The translations under genes and the position numbers were made by a program. 64,000 nt of DNA from Nitrospira sp. (GTDB lineage Bacteria > Nitrospirota > Nitrospiria > Nitrospirales > Nitrospiraceae): contig SWDG01000025.1 in assembly GCA_005116965.1 (NCBI GenBank), positions 299,883-363,882 on the forward strand, written 5' to 3'. This document shows, in pieces, positions 43,365 through 63,290 of this stretch. The notes beneath the pieces are model-generated. The model made no database searches. It saw only the letters and a list, made by a program, of their open reading frames with translations, and had not been told where the DNA came from. The stretch's first letter is position 1. Each line of letters begins with the position of its first letter.

Positions 43365-43991
43365 TTACTCAGAATGGTTTGAAAGAGCGTCTTCAAAGAA
43401 TTTGGTCAGAGACGAAAAGTCTCCTTGATCAGCGTCCCGCATGGCAGCAATGTACCGCGCTCGAATCTGGTGACCTTCAGACATGAGATGGGTTTGAGGC
43501 CATCTCGGCAAAGGATGTCCGTGGGAATAGAAGAATATGTCGGTGATCAGTCGTGCATGCCGCCCATTCCCATTTCGAAAGGGATGGATCTTCGTCAGCC
43601 TGTTCTGAAGACGCGCGGCGACTTCGAGAATCGGCATCGTCGACGTTGGTTCATTCCAATAATGAAAGTCATCACATAACAAGCGCATCTGTTCTGGTAT
43701 GAGGTGCCAGTCAATGCCGATGTTGAGATTATCCGTTCGGTATTTCCCCGCCCATGTCCAGATTGCGCCAAACATATCGTGGTGAACTGCACAGAGGAAG
43801 CCATTGGTGAGCCATCGTGCCCCCCGTTTCTTCCTACGGGCCTCAAAAATGTACTTGTCATAAGCCAGACTAATGGCGTGCGCTTCGGCTGCGTTCCGGT
43901 CTGCCCTGGTCGTGAGCTGAGTAAGAATGAGCCCTGAGGTGTCATCACCCGAGGTTTCACCATCCGGTTGATTTTCGTCCACGATGGTCAT
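43365..43991 (-). CDS. Fic-domain protein, mobile mystery protein B family
   Basis: Fic motif HPFRNGNGRHAR; architecture of mobile mystery protein B. Confidence 0.88.
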   Translation of the reverse strand: MTIVDENQPDGETSGDDTSGLILTQLTTRADRNAAEAHAISLAYDKYIFEARRKKRGARWLTNGFLCAVHHDMFGAIWTWAGKYRTDNLNIGIDWHLIPEQMRLLCDDFHYWNEPTSTMPILEVAARLQNRLTKIHPFRNGNGRHARLITDIFFYSHGHPLPRWPQTHLMSEGHQIRARYIAAMRDADQGDFSSLTKFFEDALSNHSE

Positions 43992-44446
43992 CGAGCTGAA
44001 ATTCGTTTACGAGGGCTGCGGAGAATATCGTCGGTGCGTTTTTCAAGGAGCTGTCTGAATGTGTCCTTATCAGGTGCTTGGTCTTCAAGTGCCATGGTTC
44101 CCATCGTCTGTTTCAGTCGTTTAAGGGCAACTGCTCGGGCGCGATCTCTGGTGAGTTCTTCCAGCGATTTCTGAAGCAGTGGTTCGAGGTTGAGCTCACA
44201 CCCTAAGCCTTCATAAATTCGTCGGAGCGTCCCGACTTGGGGATCAACTTTCCCAGATTCAATCGCCGCGAGATTTGGCTGGGTAATATGGGCACGTTGA
44301 GCCAGTTCAGCCTGCGTCATCCGTAACCGATTCCGGAGCAGACGTACCCAGTCCCCCGCCGTGAGTTTGCTCGTGCCTCTCGATACCCGTACCGGCAGTC
44401 TTGATAAGGCTATGTCATCGAGCACAGTTATGAATTTTTGTTTCAT
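43988..44446 (-). CDS. XRE-type HTH protein, mobile mystery protein A family
   Basis: LRNRLRMTQAELAQRAHITQPNLAAIESGKVDPQVGTLRRIYEGLGCEL; overlaps the Fic gene by 4 nt. Confidence 0.88.
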   Translation of the reverse strand: MKQKFITVLDDIALSRLPVRVSRGTSKLTAGDWVRLLRNRLRMTQAELAQRAHITQPNLAAIESGKVDPQVGTLRRIYEGLGCELNLEPLLQKSLEELTRDRARAVALKRLKQTMGTMALEDQAPDKDTFRQLLEKRTDDILRSPRKRISAR

Positions 44447-45126: not shown

Positions 45127-45451
45127 GCTGAACTCCTTTGTTAGGGTTACTGATACCTGTCAGAAAACACTGAATGACCTTATTGAATAGAGCTCTATCC
45201 GATCACGAGTATGCTTATAACCCGATGCCAGAAGTGGATCTACCGACCAGAGCACCAGATGCTACCGTATGTGACAATAAAACCTTGCGACACCCTGAAC
45301 ACTTCGCTCTCCAAATTAATCACCACCGTCATTCTCGTTCTTCAGCACCATCACTCACTCATCAGATCCGACGGTCCGCTAAGAAGCCACCCCTAGTACC
45401 TGGGGATGGTACCAAGAGAGGTCGAACGGCTACTACTACCGGATACAACGG

Positions 45452-45467
45452 ATGCTACAGATGTGAC
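45452..45467 (-). promoter_or_regulatory. Shared VPLPA-CTERM upstream element, copy A
   Basis: Minus strand GTCACATCTGTAGCAT, identical 16-mer to copy at 63143-63158. Confidence 0.5.
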
Positions 45468-45612
45468 AGAAAATGGGGGTTGGAAGCTGGATTCTCTAGA
45501 GATTTCCACGCAAAGACGGGAGGTGCGCCGGTGCCGGTATGAAAGGTCGGTGTGAAACCTTCGTCGATACTCGACCGGGTCGTACCGTAGGATGAGTGCC
45601 TGGAACGCTGAG

Positions 45613-55634: not shown

Positions 55635-57290
55635 TCAATCGGGAACATACCGACCCAACAACGGCGTCACCAAGCCCACCATCGCCTGGAGCCGTTCGTC
55701 GACGATCGCTTCATTTTCTCCGGGATGCACCGACGAGGACAACCGCACGAGTGCTCCATCGGCGCGATGCCTGGTCAGGGAATCCCAAAAGAGGAAAAAC
55801 TTCACCAGATATTCGCTCGTAATCCAGCGATCGCGCTGTTTGAACCAGTAATAGACGATCTGTTTATATCCATCTTTCTGCACGACGACGCGATTGATCT
55901 CCTGGCCAGGCCTGATCTCCGACACATGATTCATCCGTGTCGGTTCAAAAGACGTGATTTCCCATCCACCTCCCGGAATACATTGCTTCGGCGAATGCGA
56001 CGAACGACCCTTCTTCGGAGAGAGATAGTAGGCAACGTAGACATTGACTGGGCGATGATCGGCGGTCGTGTAATCCGCCATCACATAATCGTCCAGCGCC
56101 AACGCATCGAGGTACTGTCGCTCCATCGGAGAAGTGACTCCCATCCACCCTCCAAGCTGCAAAGGAAAGTCGACCAACTGTTGCCGACTGGGTGGAGGAG
56201 GAAACTCCTCGGAATTGATGGTGGGAGCAGCGACGACCGCCACAGCAAGCAATCCACCCGCGACGACCAGGGGTGAATAGGAAATTGCTGCAGCTGGTTG
56301 AGGGATGTTGGAGGCTATCGCACTGCCCGCAGCCGGCAGACCGATCAATTCGGCGAACGAACGGCGAGGTCCGCTCGAACCGACTCTCGCGAGAACCCAC
56401 ATTTCGCCACACAGCAAGGCGAGACTCGCGACAAAGATAATCCACCCTTCGAAAAAGTGGGTAAACCCTTCGGCAGCGCCCTGCCCATAAAAGCCGACCA
56501 GCACACCAATTGCAGCAATCCGAAAACCGTTTAAGATAATTGAAATAGGAATGCTCGACAGTACGAGGACGACGCGCTTCCAGAGCGAAGCTCGGTAGAG
56601 ATAGGCCACGAGCAATGTCAAGGCCGTGAGTGGAAACAGATACCGAAGACCGCTGCAAGCCTCGACTACTTGAAGCTGCGTCGGACCAAGATCGATCACG
56701 TTTCCTTCCCGATAGGCGGTCACGCCGATCACGTGAAGAAATCCAACGCCCAAGGTCGACGACCACAGTTGAAGTTTGCTTGACAACTCGTATTGCAGAA
56801 AGACCGGTAGGGGAACGGCTGCGAGTAAATACAACAAAGGAAACGTGAGCTGACGAATGCCGGCCAGGCCGATCGCACAGCCCAGCAATCCGACGATCAC
56901 CATCCAGAGCGAGAGATGCACGACCGCGTGCATAGCAGCAAACTGGCCGACCACGTACACGCACAGCCCGATTCCGACGATTGATAACCCCCACCATGAA
57001 CCGCGATGCTCAATGGCATGGAGTGTCGGCCACCGAAGCCAAATCATGTACAGTACGATCAACGGGATGAAGGGCCCGTGGCTGTTGTTGTCCTCCAACC
57101 ATGACTCCCCCAAGAACCGCAGGCTGTCCGCGTAGAGATAGCCGAGGACCGTCATGATTGCGGCAAGGATCGCCCATTGCATCGAGGCGCTCTTCTGCGT
57201 CGACGAGTGAATCAAGGGTGGTCCGGAAGGGGAAGGCAACGACTGTCCTAACACCGTAGGTTGAGTACTCATGACAGCTCCTAGTAGCAA
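55635..57290 (-). CDS. Exosortase fused to EpsI domain (XrtD-like)
   Basis: VVEACSGLRYLFPLTAL (Cys), ILNGFRIAAIG (Arg), GFTHFFEGW (His); C-terminal EpsI-like region with QCIPGGGWEI. Start may be at 57272. Confidence 0.88.
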   Translation of the reverse strand: MLLGAVMSTQPTVLGQSLPSPSGPPLIHSSTQKSASMQWAILAAIMTVLGYLYADSLRFLGESWLEDNNSHGPFIPLIVLYMIWLRWPTLHAIEHRGSWWGLSIVGIGLCVYVVGQFAAMHAVVHLSLWMVIVGLLGCAIGLAGIRQLTFPLLYLLAAVPLPVFLQYELSSKLQLWSSTLGVGFLHVIGVTAYREGNVIDLGPTQLQVVEACSGLRYLFPLTALTLLVAYLYRASLWKRVVLVLSSIPISIILNGFRIAAIGVLVGFYGQGAAEGFTHFFEGWIIFVASLALLCGEMWVLARVGSSGPRRSFAELIGLPAAGSAIASNIPQPAAAISYSPLVVAGGLLAVAVVAAPTINSEEFPPPPSRQQLVDFPLQLGGWMGVTSPMERQYLDALALDDYVMADYTTADHRPVNVYVAYYLSPKKGRSSHSPKQCIPGGGWEITSFEPTRMNHVSEIRPGQEINRVVVQKDGYKQIVYYWFKQRDRWITSEYLVKFFLFWDSLTRHRADGALVRLSSSVHPGENEAIVDERLQAMVGLVTPLLGRYVPD

Positions 57291-57324
57291 CGAGGTTGGA
57301 GTCTACCGTCCGCCGATCGCTCGT

Positions 57325-57366
57325 GGGCCACGTCAATCTCAAGTTTGTGTTAACGGATCGTTAAAA
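57325..57366 (-). promoter_or_regulatory. EPS-locus repeated upstream element, copy 1
   Basis: gggccacgtcaatctcaagtttgtgttaacggatcgttaaaa; 34/42 identical to copy 3. Confidence 0.55.
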
Positions 57367-57531
57367 TGGGTATGAATGTGAGAGTGCCAACTGATCATCT
57401 GTAGCGAGACAAGCCGGCAAGAAACAGCTCTTTGCGGCAACCCAGACGAAGCTGAAGAAGCAGCACTCGACCGGCCCCTAACCGGACCTATCGGCGGATC
57501 GAGTCCGGGGGACAGGTATCGATTCATTCAC

Positions 57532-58080
57532 TCAGAACCGATAGCTAAGAATCAGACCAACCACAATCGAGAGGCATCCAGCGGCCCCGCTGTAGAATGC
57601 CACGGCGCAGCCACCGGCCTCCAGGATGCGGTAGATCGAGACGTGAGCGGCGGTCGCGGTGGCCATTGAGAGACTCAGCACGAGCGCTCCAAGCCAGAGA
57701 ATATATGTCCAGGAAATCCTGAGAACGGATGGTGCCACAAATGCGGCCACCATCATCAACACGAGCGGAACAAGGGTATTCGCCGTAACGGTAAAACCCA
57801 ACGGCCGCAGGAAATACGAAAAGATGGAATCGGAAAACGTGATGGCAAACGGCAGCGCCACCAGCCATGAAAAGTCCGCCTGTGTGGGCTCGGCCTCTTC
57901 CCATTGGGCTTCTCCCCATTGGAATCCTGATTGGCCCCGGGAGAGCGATTCCTCATCAAGAACGGTTTCTGACGTCATATGTCCCCCGTACTGCTGCATG
58001 TCCTCGCTCCTTCCTGCGAACTTCGATGAGCGTCTATCGTATGATAAGATTGTCCGGACGAGCAGGCTGAATGGAATCAC
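57532..58080 (-). CDS. Membrane protein of EPS locus, possibly N-terminal part of a polymerase
   Basis: About four TM segments after a soluble N-terminus; no motif recognised. Confidence 0.5.
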   Translation of the reverse strand: MIPFSLLVRTILSYDRRSSKFAGRSEDMQQYGGHMTSETVLDEESLSRGQSGFQWGEAQWEEAEPTQADFSWLVALPFAITFSDSIFSYFLRPLGFTVTANTLVPLVLMMVAAFVAPSVLRISWTYILWLGALVLSLSMATATAAHVSIYRILEAGGCAVAFYSGAAGCLSIVVGLILSYRF

Positions 58081-58984
58081 GTTTCATGAGCACAAATTCT
58101 CTCAACTCCTGCCACCACAATGCTTCGGGATTCCACCGCTCAGGTTTATTGTTTGCCCCCCAGCCCCCCCACACGACGACCCCGTCTGCTAAGGCATATG
58201 CGGCATCAAGTTGGTAGCGCCAGTATGTCTGTTCGAGCGGACGAAACTTCAGCGATTCTTCAATGGGCCCATAGTCTGCGTACCGGGGCCATAGAAAAAG
58301 AAAAACGGGCACGTCGGGCCTGATTCGTCGAATCTCTGAGATCTGCAACTCGATTGAAGCACGCCATTCTTCTGGTTGATCCGTAAACGTATACCCGACA
58401 GGGAAAATGGCGTCCACGAGTGCGAATAGGGGCGCCACGTTTGTGTTGTCCCGTTGCATATTGAGGTACTTTCCAGAGTCCTTCTTCGTGTCGAGCCCCT
58501 CATAACCACCCGTCACGGGTAACGCTCCGAATAACCCAACTTTCTGCTCTGGTGCGATTTGTCTATAACGAGAGACGACTTGGGAAAGTTTCCTGATACT
58601 TGCGGCGACTTCACCTTCATATCGCTGAGAATTATTTACAGACCATGCCTCGATATCAATGATCGTATAGGCACTTCCGATCTCCCGCGATTTCTGGGCT
58701 TGAATTCGCAGCCGGCTATCGGTCGGCATATCGTCCTGGGAACGTTTCGCGCGGATCCACTCATCAAACAGATGCGGCTCATAGGCGATATAGATGGGGA
58801 GCATTCCCAATGGCCGTAGGTCGGGCTTGTCAGTAAAAAGAGTGGCATCATAGACCACGAATGATTTGGCCCCGTAACAATCTTGTGCGGGCAGCCCCAG
58901 TAAAACACAGATCCCCAGGCCTCCCAGCAATAGAGCCCTCCCCAAACGGGACAATTCCCCGAAGCTACGCATGACACCTCTCAT
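58034..58984 (-). CDS. Secreted hypothetical protein, possible TIM-barrel glycosidase-like enzyme
   Basis: Signal peptide; YTIIDIEAW, PVFLFLWPRY, ADGVVVWGGWGANNKPERWN. Confidence 0.55.
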   Translation of the reverse strand: MRGVMRSFGELSRLGRALLLGGLGICVLLGLPAQDCYGAKSFVVYDATLFTDKPDLRPLGMLPIYIAYEPHLFDEWIRAKRSQDDMPTDSRLRIQAQKSREIGSAYTIIDIEAWSVNNSQRYEGEVAASIRKLSQVVSRYRQIAPEQKVGLFGALPVTGGYEGLDTKKDSGKYLNMQRDNTNVAPLFALVDAIFPVGYTFTDQPEEWRASIELQISEIRRIRPDVPVFLFLWPRYADYGPIEESLKFRPLEQTYWRYQLDAAYALADGVVVWGGWGANNKPERWNPEALWWQELREFVLMKRDSIQPARPDNLIIR

Positions 58985-59039
58985 TGCAGATGTTCCTTTC
59001 TACAACTATGACTTGATTCCGTGGCGTCAACATCATGCG

Positions 59040-60512
59040 CTATATGTCCACGGCTTCTCGTTTCCAACCAGGAAAATGCCGAGCAAGCGAGATTCGGATT
59101 CCCACAGCGTGTGACAACCCCCAAAAGAGAGCACCTGCGAGCAAAGGAGACAACAGCCCCCCCCCCTTAACCATGGCAGCAATCCCAATACCGGCAGAAA
59201 GCGCAACAACAAAAAGACCGCTGGAGATATCTGATTGCTGCAAGGAAAAATCAAAGTGCTTTCCAAATGCAAGCCGAACAGCGACGACATACGACAGCAC
59301 ATAGGCCATGACCGGGCCCACACTAAACGCGGCAGTCGAAGAGTAGTACGTTCCGATAGCAGTGCACGCAGTCGCAAGTAACGCGAAGCCCCCTGTGAGC
59401 AGAGCGAGGGAGCGACCATGACCATGGGCGAGAAGACAGAAATACTGTACCCCATAGGCAATTTCGAGGAAGTAGACGGCGACCGCTACTTGCGCGAGTC
59501 CCACATACTCTTCTACTGAAAGGCCTAGCCACAAACTGAACCACCAGGGAGTTGAGACAACCGCCCAAATACCAACAAATAGGGTGAAGACCTGAAATAG
59601 ATCCAGGTACAAGTTGAGTTTTTGGTAGGCAGTAGAAGTTCGGTCACGGATGTCAACCAATGCCAATCTTGGAATAAGCATCGGACGCAACACGGAAAAC
59701 AGTCCCTGGTTGATGTATGTCCTCAGGGTGACAAGAATGATAGCCACAACCCCGGCTTGTTCTCCAACCAACGCGACACTTGCCAGGATAACACCTCCCC
59801 GAAACACCACGTAGGGAGCGATCCCATTGAGCGCAAGAGGTAGAGAGTTCACGAACGCATCGTACTGAGCGCCCATCCGATCAACCCATTTACCGTCTCG
59901 CACGCTCACTTCAAGAGGCGAAAGCCAAAACAAGATCCCTAGTTTCGCAACTTGCCCAACGAACGCCGCGAGAAAAAACTGAGATACACTCGCTGAAAAC
60001 GCTTTAAAAAGGATGACGGTGAGAACGGCACGAAACAGGGAATCCAGACCACCAAGACTGCTAGGGATCCAACTACGTTTTAGTGCGTGCTCATGGCACT
60101 CCAGAACATAGGCGAGCTGTTCGGCAACGACATAGGCTACAGCAAACAGACTAGCCGCAATGATATCCCCCATCTGCATGCCGATCAGTTCGTAGACGAA
60201 CGGCCACACCATCAGCCATAGCACAACCGCTGCTGCCGCTGAGAGTAACGTGAAGAAAAAAATAGAATGGAGCACGTCCCGATCGCCGTTGTGTGTGGCA
60301 AGCGCAATCGCTCGTGCCGCATATTGCCGATATCCATCGAAGAAAAATGTGATAAGACCGGCGGCAGCCTGCAACGTCGCAATAGCAGCAAAACCTGCTA
60401 AACCAACTCCATCTTCAGACAGCAAAAAAGGAATGAAGATCAGCCCAGTCAGCGTTTGAACGGCTATCGCCAGATATCCCGCAGCGAGGGTTGTCGGTAA
60501 CGATTTCATCAC
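59040..60512 (-). CDS. Polysaccharide flippase (Wzx/MATE-like)
   Basis: About 490-aa polytopic protein inside the EPS locus with flippase-like N-terminus. Confidence 0.8.
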   Translation of the reverse strand: MMKSLPTTLAAGYLAIAVQTLTGLIFIPFLLSEDGVGLAGFAAIATLQAAAGLITFFFDGYRQYAARAIALATHNGDRDVLHSIFFFTLLSAAAAVVLWLMVWPFVYELIGMQMGDIIAASLFAVAYVVAEQLAYVLECHEHALKRSWIPSSLGGLDSLFRAVLTVILFKAFSASVSQFFLAAFVGQVAKLGILFWLSPLEVSVRDGKWVDRMGAQYDAFVNSLPLALNGIAPYVVFRGGVILASVALVGEQAGVVAIILVTLRTYINQGLFSVLRPMLIPRLALVDIRDRTSTAYQKLNLYLDLFQVFTLFVGIWAVVSTPWWFSLWLGLSVEEYVGLAQVAVAVYFLEIAYGVQYFCLLAHGHGRSLALLTGGFALLATACTAIGTYYSSTAAFSVGPVMAYVLSYVVAVRLAFGKHFDFSLQQSDISSGLFVVALSAGIGIAAMVKGGGLLSPLLAGALFWGLSHAVGIRISLARHFPGWKREAVDI

Positions 60513-60702
60513 TTTCTACGGCTCACGATTCCGACCTTGAAGATAGATTTCCACTCTCCGCTTCTGCCCAACCGCATGCCCACGCGCCTTGCGCCCCAGG
60601 AAAGAAAGACTCTAACTTTGATCGGGATAATCCTCGAGGTTCGTGATTCATCTGAGGGTGCAGGCTATAGGAGCGCTGCCGACTGTCAGCCGCTCGACGC
60701 AC

Positions 60703-60743
60703 AGGCCACATAGGGTTTATCTTTGCGTTATCGACTCGTCAAC
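60703..60743 (-). promoter_or_regulatory. EPS-locus repeated upstream element, copy 2
   Basis: aggccacatagggtttatctttgcgttatcgactcgtcaac; about 32/42 identical to copy 3. Confidence 0.45.
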
Positions 60744-60784
60744 ACGGTGCGAACGAAAACCGTCTGAACCATTAGTTCTTCGAC

Positions 60785-61996
60785 TCAAATCGGCTGTTTT
60801 TCATGTTGGAGAGATCCCGACATGTTTGTCGCCTCTGCTTCAACCCTCTGCCGGCAACTGGCAGCTGTTCGGTCAATGCAGTCGGCAAGACTTTTTGCCC
60901 AGGTTTCCGGGGTATATAAGGCCATGATCCGTCGAGAGATTTCTCCCATCGATGCAATATCGACGAGAGTCGATGACATCACCGTCATCACTTGGGCCAT
61001 ACCCTCACTATCAAATGGGTCGACCACGTATCCGTTCAACCCATGGCGCACAAGCTCTGCCACACAACCACATCGATGCGACACGATGACAGGAAGACCC
61101 GCCGCCATCGCTTCATTCACGACGAGGCCCCATGTTTCGCTCACGCTCGGCAAGATCAAGCAGGAGGCCAATCCATAATAGAGCCCGAGTTGATCGGCCC
61201 GGTGAGAACCGGCAAAGACGACCCCTGGGATCCCCTGAACTTGCTGTTGCAATAGTTTTTCCTGAGGCCCCCCTCCCACCAGAATAAGCCCCCATGCGTC
61301 GGATTTGGCAGTTCGACGATACGAGGCGTAGGCCTCGACCAGTCGCGGCAGATTCTTTTCCGGCGAGAAGCGTCCGACAAACAGGAAGAATCTCTCTGGG
61401 AGATTGAGGCGCCCTCGCAGCGCCGCGGCATCCTGCCGCGCAACAGCGGCTCCCGCTGAAAAGACCTGATTATCAACAACATCGAATCCAGTCCATATTT
61501 TCTCTCGTGGGAATCCCATCTTCTGGAGATAGGCTGCGGCACGTTCGCCGGCGGCAAACGCGGCATCGTAGTGACGCCGCGCCCACCACCCCTTGACCCA
61601 TTCCTTCACGGGGTTTCGTCGACGGTCCCCCCATTGCGAGTCGCCGATGTAGATACTGAGCCGCTTGCGCTGTCTGGTCCATCGAGCGGCAGCCCTCATG
61701 CCAGAATAGAAATAGCCGCTGATCACAACTGCGGCCGGGTCTAAGGCATTCAGCCACTGAAATACTCGCTCTGCCTGCGCCCGAGAATCGAGACTCTCAA
61801 CGTTCTTCTCAGGGAACGCTTCCACATAGTCAAACCCCAGATCATCCTTGCAAATCCCCCATTCCCGCATCTGTTCTCTGGCGCTCAGTGCCATGACCCG
61901 GACGGAATAGTCAGGTCTGAGTGATTGAAACGCCTTGAACCGCGGAACGCTATAGGGCGCAAGAACCGGCTCCAAGCAACAGACAGTCATCTTCAT
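60785..61996 (-). CDS. Glycosyltransferase family 4 protein
   Basis: FFLFVGRFSPEKNLPRLVEAYASYR...CLILPSVSETWGLVVNEAMAAGLPVIVSHRCG. Confidence 0.92.
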   Translation of the reverse strand: MKMTVCCLEPVLAPYSVPRFKAFQSLRPDYSVRVMALSAREQMREWGICKDDLGFDYVEAFPEKNVESLDSRAQAERVFQWLNALDPAAVVISGYFYSGMRAAARWTRQRKRLSIYIGDSQWGDRRRNPVKEWVKGWWARRHYDAAFAAGERAAAYLQKMGFPREKIWTGFDVVDNQVFSAGAAVARQDAAALRGRLNLPERFFLFVGRFSPEKNLPRLVEAYASYRRTAKSDAWGLILVGGGPQEKLLQQQVQGIPGVVFAGSHRADQLGLYYGLASCLILPSVSETWGLVVNEAMAAGLPVIVSHRCGCVAELVRHGLNGYVVDPFDSEGMAQVMTVMSSTLVDIASMGEISRRIMALYTPETWAKSLADCIDRTAASCRQRVEAEATNMSGSLQHEKQPI

Positions 61997-62062
61997 TTAA
62001 GTTTCTCTCCAATGTTCCGGATCGTCACCAGCCTGCAGTCTACCGCTAGAGACTGAATGGGC

Positions 62063-62105
62063 GGGCCACATGGGGCTCAATTTTGTGTTAACGAATCGTC
62101 AAAAA
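62063..62105 (-). promoter_or_regulatory. EPS-locus repeated upstream element, copy 3
   Basis: gggccacatggggctcaattttgtgttaacgaatcgtcaaaaa. Confidence 0.55.
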
Positions 62106-62233: not shown

Positions 62234-62385
62234 GACGGAAACGATGTGAATATCGTCCCTCCTGCACATTAATCTGTTGCATCTGTTGCATCCAGTCTAG
62301 ACGATGTATCTTCATGTCCACTATGCTCATGCCCTGATTGTAACAACCTGAGTCTCAGACAGGGATTCAGTCCGGTGACGAAAGG

Positions 62386-63000
62386 ATGTGGAACATGAAA
62401 TGGGATAGGTCGATTCTGGCGTGGGGGCTCTTCAGCGTCGGGGTATTTCTCCAATCGCCTGCTTACGCGGTAACCGTGACGCATCTCGAGGTGACCAGAG
62501 GCGCCGTGAATTATGATGGGCCGAACCAGGACGCGCTCGATCGGCTGCTCGCGCAGGACGGCGTCATGCAGATGGGACGATTTCAAGGAGTCGGCGAACT
62601 TGTCCCGACGATCAACCGATCCAACGAGACCCATGCGCTGTTCACCTCCGGCTTCAGCGGGGCCGCGGCTCCGTCAGCTGTCATCACGGACTCCGTCATC
62701 ACGGTCGACCTCTCCTCCCTGTTCTTCAGCGTGAATCAGGGTAACGCCTATCGACTGTGGAACATCGGCACCGTTGTCACCGGCCTCTACAATCCGACGT
62801 CGAAAGAGTTTGCGCTTTCATGGGATCGCGTCTTTGATGAAAATTGTCAACAAGGACAAGCCTCGTTCTTCGTGAATGGACTGGTCCATTTTGACTCCGA
62901 TGTGCAACCTGTCCCCGTTCCCGCCGCCGCATGGTTATTCGGAAGTGGGTTGGCCGGTATCGCCGCCCTGGTGCGCCGACGCCATCGTTGTTTGACCTAG
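62386..63000 (+). CDS. VPLPA-CTERM-like sorting-signal protein
   Basis: C-terminus VPVPAAAWLFGSGLAGIAALVRRRHRCLT; signal peptide. Confidence 0.88.
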   Translation: MWNMKWDRSILAWGLFSVGVFLQSPAYAVTVTHLEVTRGAVNYDGPNQDALDRLLAQDGVMQMGRFQGVGELVPTINRSNETHALFTSGFSGAAAPSAVITDSVITVDLSSLFFSVNQGNAYRLWNIGTVVTGLYNPTSKEFALSWDRVFDENCQQGQASFFVNGLVHFDSDVQPVPVPAAAWLFGSGLAGIAALVRRRHRCLT

Positions 63001-63142: not shown

Positions 63143-63158
63143 GTCACATCTGTAGCAT
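63143..63158 (+). promoter_or_regulatory. Shared VPLPA-CTERM upstream element, copy B
   Basis: GTCACATCTGTAGCAT, exact 16-mer match to copy A. Confidence 0.5.
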
Positions 63159-63290
63159 ATCTTGCATGCTACCAGTAGCCGTCTCCACTTCGCAGTAGCT
63201 ACACTCCAGCTGAAGAAGACGTCCTGGGCAGCATTGCACTGCTTCCGAGGGATCGGAAACAATCAACTCACACGAACAGAAGGGCACACA

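Follow-up and report, generated by a model that had tools for sequence, protein, structure and literature searches.

The 42-bp element that occurs three times in an exosortase/EPS locus of Nitrospira sp. is very probably an activator-dependent promoter, at which a regulator of the PhoB/OmpR family would switch on the XrtD/EPS transcription units, probably as part of the Pho regulon. Judged from sequence comparisons, the element is well supported as a conserved promoter with a predicted PhoB/OmpR-type operator. In the proposed mechanism, a response regulator of this family would bind three head-to-tail 11-bp repeats, which begin about 60, 49, and 38 bp upstream of the -10 hexamer, with a weak fourth repeat at 26-27 bp. 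The bound regulator would then recruit RNA polymerase to a sigma-70-type -10 hexamer (TAGACT or TACACT) that lacks a clear -35 partner, and separate units of the locus would thereby be activated. Phosphate limitation would be the probable signal.

The analyzed stretch of DNA, in the following called the window, comprises 64,000 nt of contig SWDG01000025.1 (GCA_005116965.1; positions 299,883-363,882). An earlier note had described three gapless copies of 42 bp at 57325-57366, 60703-60743, and 62063-62105, and both the coordinates and the ungapped alignment were confirmed, as were the identities of 34/42 for copies 1 and 3 and 32/42 for copies 2 and 3. Copies 1 and 2 share 26/42 positions. According to a simple base-composition estimate, 0.00025 chance pairs of 42-mers are expected in 64 kb at 34/42 and 0.028 at 32/42, while the match of copies 1 and 2, taken alone, is at chance level. 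A pattern derived from the copies matched only these three within the window (0.04 matches expected from shuffled sequences). The minus-strand core indeed reads TT(G/A)ACGA(T/G)(T/C)CG(T/A)TAAC(A/G)CAAA. The sequence AGTCTACCG, which copies 1 and 3 had been said to share at similar spacing, was found at 57300 and 62037, 17 and 18 bp from the respective copies, and at no other place in the window; reversed, it corresponds to the predicted -10 region of the element. An Rfam search of the window yielded zero matches above the gathering score, and thus no known RNA leader.

All three copies are located on the minus strand and were scored with R1, a sequence-only model that was built from 27 copies and includes the -10. 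Copy 1 (57326-57364; R1 E = 4e-20) consists of the direct repeats TTAACGATCCG, TTAACACAAAC, and TTGAGATTGAC, followed by GTGGCC as the weaker fourth repeat, and its predicted -10, TAGACT (57300-57305), lies 20 bp after GTGGCC. The first gene downstream, the ATG of which is 27 nt past the -10, encodes an exosortase XrtD of the VPLPA-CTERM type with a fused EpsI domain (55635-57272, minus strand; TIGR04152, 529.9 bits, cut-off 400). Copy 3 (62064-62102; E = 1e-14) contains TTGACGATTCG, TTAACACAAAA, TTGAGCCCCAT, and GTGGCC, with a predicted TAGACT (62037-62042) 21 bp further on, and precedes a gene for a GT4-family glycosyltransferase (60785-61996, minus strand; PF00534). Copy 2 (60704-60742; E = 7e-8) contains TTGACGAGTCG, ATAACGCAAAG, ATAAACCCTAT, and GTGGCC, and the downstream gene (59040-60512, minus strand) encodes a protein with multiple membrane spans that looks like a flippase. 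The order of copies before exosortase, flippase, and glycosyltransferase genes was as first described, but the name flippase reflects the appearance as a membrane protein, and searches of Pfam and NCBIfam with this product matched no family. Together with PrsT-like, chain-length, tyrosine kinase, and ATPase genes, the XrtD-EpsI and glycosyltransferase genes make up an exosortase/EPS cluster.

Inspection of the usual -10 position of copy 2 revealed TCGGCA and no recognizable -10. The proposal of the earlier note, a common activator site or promoter for separate units of the locus, therefore has good support in the case of copies 1 and 3, but it is doubtful for copy 2, which may be a decayed, perhaps dead, outlier. 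For the element in general, the promoter reading is largely supported in a refined form, with a predicted PhoB/OmpR-type direct-repeat operator and a putative -10 within the reversed AGTCTACCG.

The architecture became apparent from 73 distinct sites in Nitrospiraceae, nearly all of which are in the same EPS/XrtD locus. The genomes that carry these sites are related and in many cases MAGs, and the sites are not independent of one another. The element consists of three 11-bp direct repeats (TTAAC..., NTAACA..., TTGA...), the weaker fourth (GTGGCC), and the -10 hexamer TA(G/C)ACT. The repeats were analyzed at the 67 of 73 sites with ungapped cores, and 18 of these share less than 80% identity. 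Within this set of 18, TT.A in the first repeat, TAA in the second, and T.A in the third are invariant, and the self-similarity peaks only at an offset of 11 (z = 3.2), with values below 1 at every other offset from 4 to 19. Direct repeats with an 11-bp period, as in a Pho-box-type operator, were thus present. The second feature of such an operator, a fixed spacing to the -10, was also found, with window copy 2 as the deviating case. A TANANT hexamer occurs 20 or 21 bp downstream in 67 of the 68 sites with enough downstream sequence (TAGACT in 34, TACACT in 21, others in 12), and the exception is window copy 2. Because R1 includes the -10, this figure is biased; a matrix of the 39-bp core only, built from 12 copies with the -10 left out, is free of that bias and detected 29 sites in the loci examined, and in 28 of these TA[CG]A[CG]T follows the core at a distance of exactly 20 or 21 bp.

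Next, the distribution of the element was analyzed. In the 3.73-Mb genome from which the window was taken, R1 found the three copies and one weak match (E = 0.025). Matches were present in 34 of 79 genomes of the same genus (E <= 0.1) and in seven genomes of other genera of the family (E <= 0.01). A pattern search of 99 relatives also showed that a subset of the same-genus genomes carry the element, well above the chance background at three mismatches, and in the loci examined thereafter it was situated upstream of exosortase genes. When 84,980 species genomes were scanned with an exact pattern, 17 stretches were obtained, and all of these belong to Nitrospira or Nitrospirota MAGs. In relatives, the sites precede genes for XrtD, GT2, GT4, and WecG-type proteins, a polyprenyl-P sugar transferase, a hexapeptide-repeat protein, AsnB, GDP-mannose dehydratase, and a MurJ-like protein, and in most cases no more than 60 nt separate the -10 region from the start codon. 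Random occurrence across the genome and absence from orthologous loci had been named as arguments against the promoter reading; neither was observed, as R1 detected no comparable copies elsewhere in the genome and the element is present in the orthologous loci of relatives. A scattered repeat or mobile element was rejected, because the genome contains only three copies, each upstream of a gene. Comparison of the R1 matches with the distribution of XrtD suggests that the sites travel with this XrtD locus. The window genome (G000) has a second XrtD locus (G000:C5:33211-34689), and a relative with just that other locus (G041) has no R1 sites.

The link to phosphate was suggested by promoters outside the EPS locus. 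In the pst cluster of the same genome, an OprO/P-type phosphate porin gene is preceded by the box TTTAACAAATTGGTAACA and pstS by TTTGTAACACGCCTGTAACA, while the PhoB-like regulator gene on C6 carries TTTGTAACAAGCCTGTAAC. When the window and three loci were searched with a strict two-repeat pattern, only four matches were obtained, namely the porin, pstS, and C6 regulator boxes and copy 1. A degenerate form was found with the EPS-derived pattern upstream of a PsiE-family gene and was seen in three relatives; in the window genome, this variant (TTAACACAAGTTTTACC at G000:C5:21718, with TAGTCT 20 bp past GTGACC) lies about 11.5 kb from the second XrtD locus. A perfect TTAAC three-repeat, TTAACTGGCTGTTAACTCGGGGTTAA, is located away from EPS genes at G000:C6:320616-320641. 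Several relatives have PstS-like and phosphate-porin genes in the vicinity of the EPS locus (L100/L160 of G102, L161 of G025, L241 of G007, and L156 of G003), and in G007 and G003 the PstS-like genes close to EPS loci carry TTAAC/TTAAC/TTRA repeats together with TAGACT. For comparison, a matrix was built with a training set of 24 boxes from porin, pstS, and regulator genes and zero EPS promoters. Among 127,958 window positions, copies 1, 3, and 2 took ranks 1, 2, and 4, and rank 3 was copy 1 on the opposite strand; copy 1 alone (21.1) scored above the maximum obtained from 60 simple shuffles (19.5). The EPS sites differ from the porin, pstS, and regulator boxes in having three repeats and in being placed at least about one helical turn further upstream of the -10. 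Because such repeats precede the porin, pstS, and PhoB-like regulator genes, the EPS locus would probably belong to the phosphate-starvation (Pho) regulon.

The genome encodes seven OmpR-type domains and has two PhoB-like genes, a PhoR-paired one (G000:C27:89694) and a paralogue (G000:C6:257553), either of which could be the acting regulator. TIGR02154, the PhoB equivalog, was the best family for all five regulators tested, but the scores of 236-246 bits were below the cut-off of 296.2, and therefore they are termed PhoB-like. Eight relatives have a gene for a PhoB-like regulator at the edge of the EPS locus, 3.1-6.9 kb from a site; these regulators group with the paralogue C6:257553 and apart from the PhoR-paired protein. 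In the window genome, the second PhoB-like gene is outside the EPS locus. Most second paralogues have a direct-repeat box (TTAAY-N6-NGTAACA or similar) and a TATGNT-like -10 upstream, which were not found for those of G031 (C29), G101 (C1), G011 (C167), and G006 (C34). The PhoR-paired-type genes have plain promoters (TTGAC...N17...TACGCT), which suggests that the lineage makes use of -10 hexamers of this kind. The association of sites and second PhoB-like genes is confounded by kinship, and strict co-occurrence was not found; because some genomes that lack R1 sites (e.g., G041, G103, and G038) have the gene as well, linkage alone is claimed. In G027, the EPS-linked PhoB-like gene (L163:4719-5339; G027:C35:37781) ends early inside the DNA-binding domain (its frame ends MYV), and the same genome has another, intact paralogue at a different place. 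As a tentative extension, a dedicated PhoB paralogue, itself induced via a Pho box, might use the three-repeat operator to pass the phosphate-starvation signal on to the exosortase/EPS locus, such that the sorting of proteins to the surface and polymer synthesis would constitute a second tier within the Pho regulon; in the window genome, the paralogue would act from another chromosomal place.

The strongest alternative retains the same kind of promoter but assigns it to an OmpR-family regulator with another signal, such as envelope stress or surface contact, so that the likeness to the Pho box would reflect nothing but family specificity. The recognition helices are nearly identical across all PhoB-like paralogues, and therefore these cannot be told apart by box sequence alone; in addition, the neighbours listed for the EPS-linked regulator include no kinase gene. 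However, the same repeats occur at the porin and pstS genes and, in weaker form, at the PsiE-family gene, and no other OmpR-type protein of the genome is as near to the EPS-linked regulators as the two PhoB-like proteins, which makes another signal rather unlikely.

Three further explanations were tested and disfavoured, based on divergent sites, conservation, and family scores. A dimeric regulator could bind a palindrome, TTAAC-N5-GTTAA, instead of direct repeats, and copy 1 is indeed a near-perfect palindrome (TTAACG-ATC-CGTTAA). However, divergent sites keep the TAACA of the second repeat and lose the palindrome (ATAAC, GTAAC, CTAAC), the boxes of pstS and the regulator gene consist of simple direct repeats, and the third repeat would be left unexplained, so this reading is improbable. 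Even less credit can be given to the view that the conserved CGGTAGACT acts like an ops element and would recruit an RfaH-type NusG paralogue to a polysaccharide operon. The ops element of RfaH (JUMPstart) contains GGTAG, which CGGTAGACT resembles; like it, the Nitrospira element is near polysaccharide genes, and the genome encodes three NusG-domain proteins. However, GGTAG is present in only 10 of 67 sites and is thus not a conserved core, whereas TANANT is nearly invariant and locked 20 or 21 bp from the repeats, as a -10 would be, and the upstream repeats would remain unaccounted for. A sigma-54 promoter under PrsR, as known for PEP-CTERM genes of Proteobacteria (Haft 2006, PMC1569441; PMC9850573), can be dismissed almost entirely in spite of the PrsT homologue within the locus, as the -24/-12 motif GG-N10-GC occurs in at most 6 of 73 sites and the best PrsR candidate of the genome reached 433.7 bits compared with a cut-off of 502.6.

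The preferred reading, a PhoB/OmpR-type operator, can be compared with known systems. Regulators of this family bind direct repeats, and in the case of M. tuberculosis PhoP, 7-bp motifs are separated by a 4-bp spacer, which gives a unit of 11 bp (PMC4832192). The element resembles Pho boxes and other OmpR/PhoB repeats in its 11-bp period, in its fixed distance to the -10, and in its presence before phosphate-uptake genes of the same genome. The differences are the three repeats and weak fourth, the position further upstream, and the exosortase/EPS locus as target. The half-site is also distinct, TTAAC/TGTAAC as opposed to CTGTCAT in the Pho box of E. coli. The proteobacterial PEP-CTERM/PrsR element is likewise a conserved upstream element linked to an exosortase/EPS system, but the Nitrospira element lacks the -24/-12 motif and precedes biosynthesis genes instead of PEP-CTERM substrate genes. 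The phosphate control of exopolysaccharide in rhizobia, a subject on which a review has been published, is also comparable; a PhoB-type regulator is linked to exopolysaccharide genes there as well, although lineage and locus are unrelated and, to our knowledge, no exosortase is involved.

As nitrifiers, Nitrospira have a key role in soil, drinking water, and activated sludge, and in these habitats they form clusters embedded in polymer. The results suggest that these nitrifiers may make surface polymer under low phosphate. If the link to the Pho regulon is true, the aggregation of Nitrospira could be influenced through the supply of phosphate, and the exosortase locus would be controlled by a route distinct from the proteobacterial PrsK/PrsR/sigma-54 route. 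The papers searched did not reveal how Nitrospira EPS is controlled, and none of them contained both "exosortase" and "PhoB".

Two observations concern other parts of the window. At 43365-44446, a Fic/XRE pair occupies the place where G054 (L086:9352-10791) has a PEP-CTERM-like/Trans_reg_C fusion gene beside the EPS locus; the fusion gene of the window genome is at G000:C6:446883. Separate from the 42-bp element, a tandem 9-bp repeat, CTGTWGCAT, was found at 62274-62291 and 63150-63167 on the plus strand and at 45443-45469 on the minus strand, with six matches at <=3 mismatches compared with 0.36 expected. Each of the three PEP-CTERM-type substrate genes (starting at 62386, about 63292, and 45126) has this repeat upstream, and it may be a control element of the sorted proteins.
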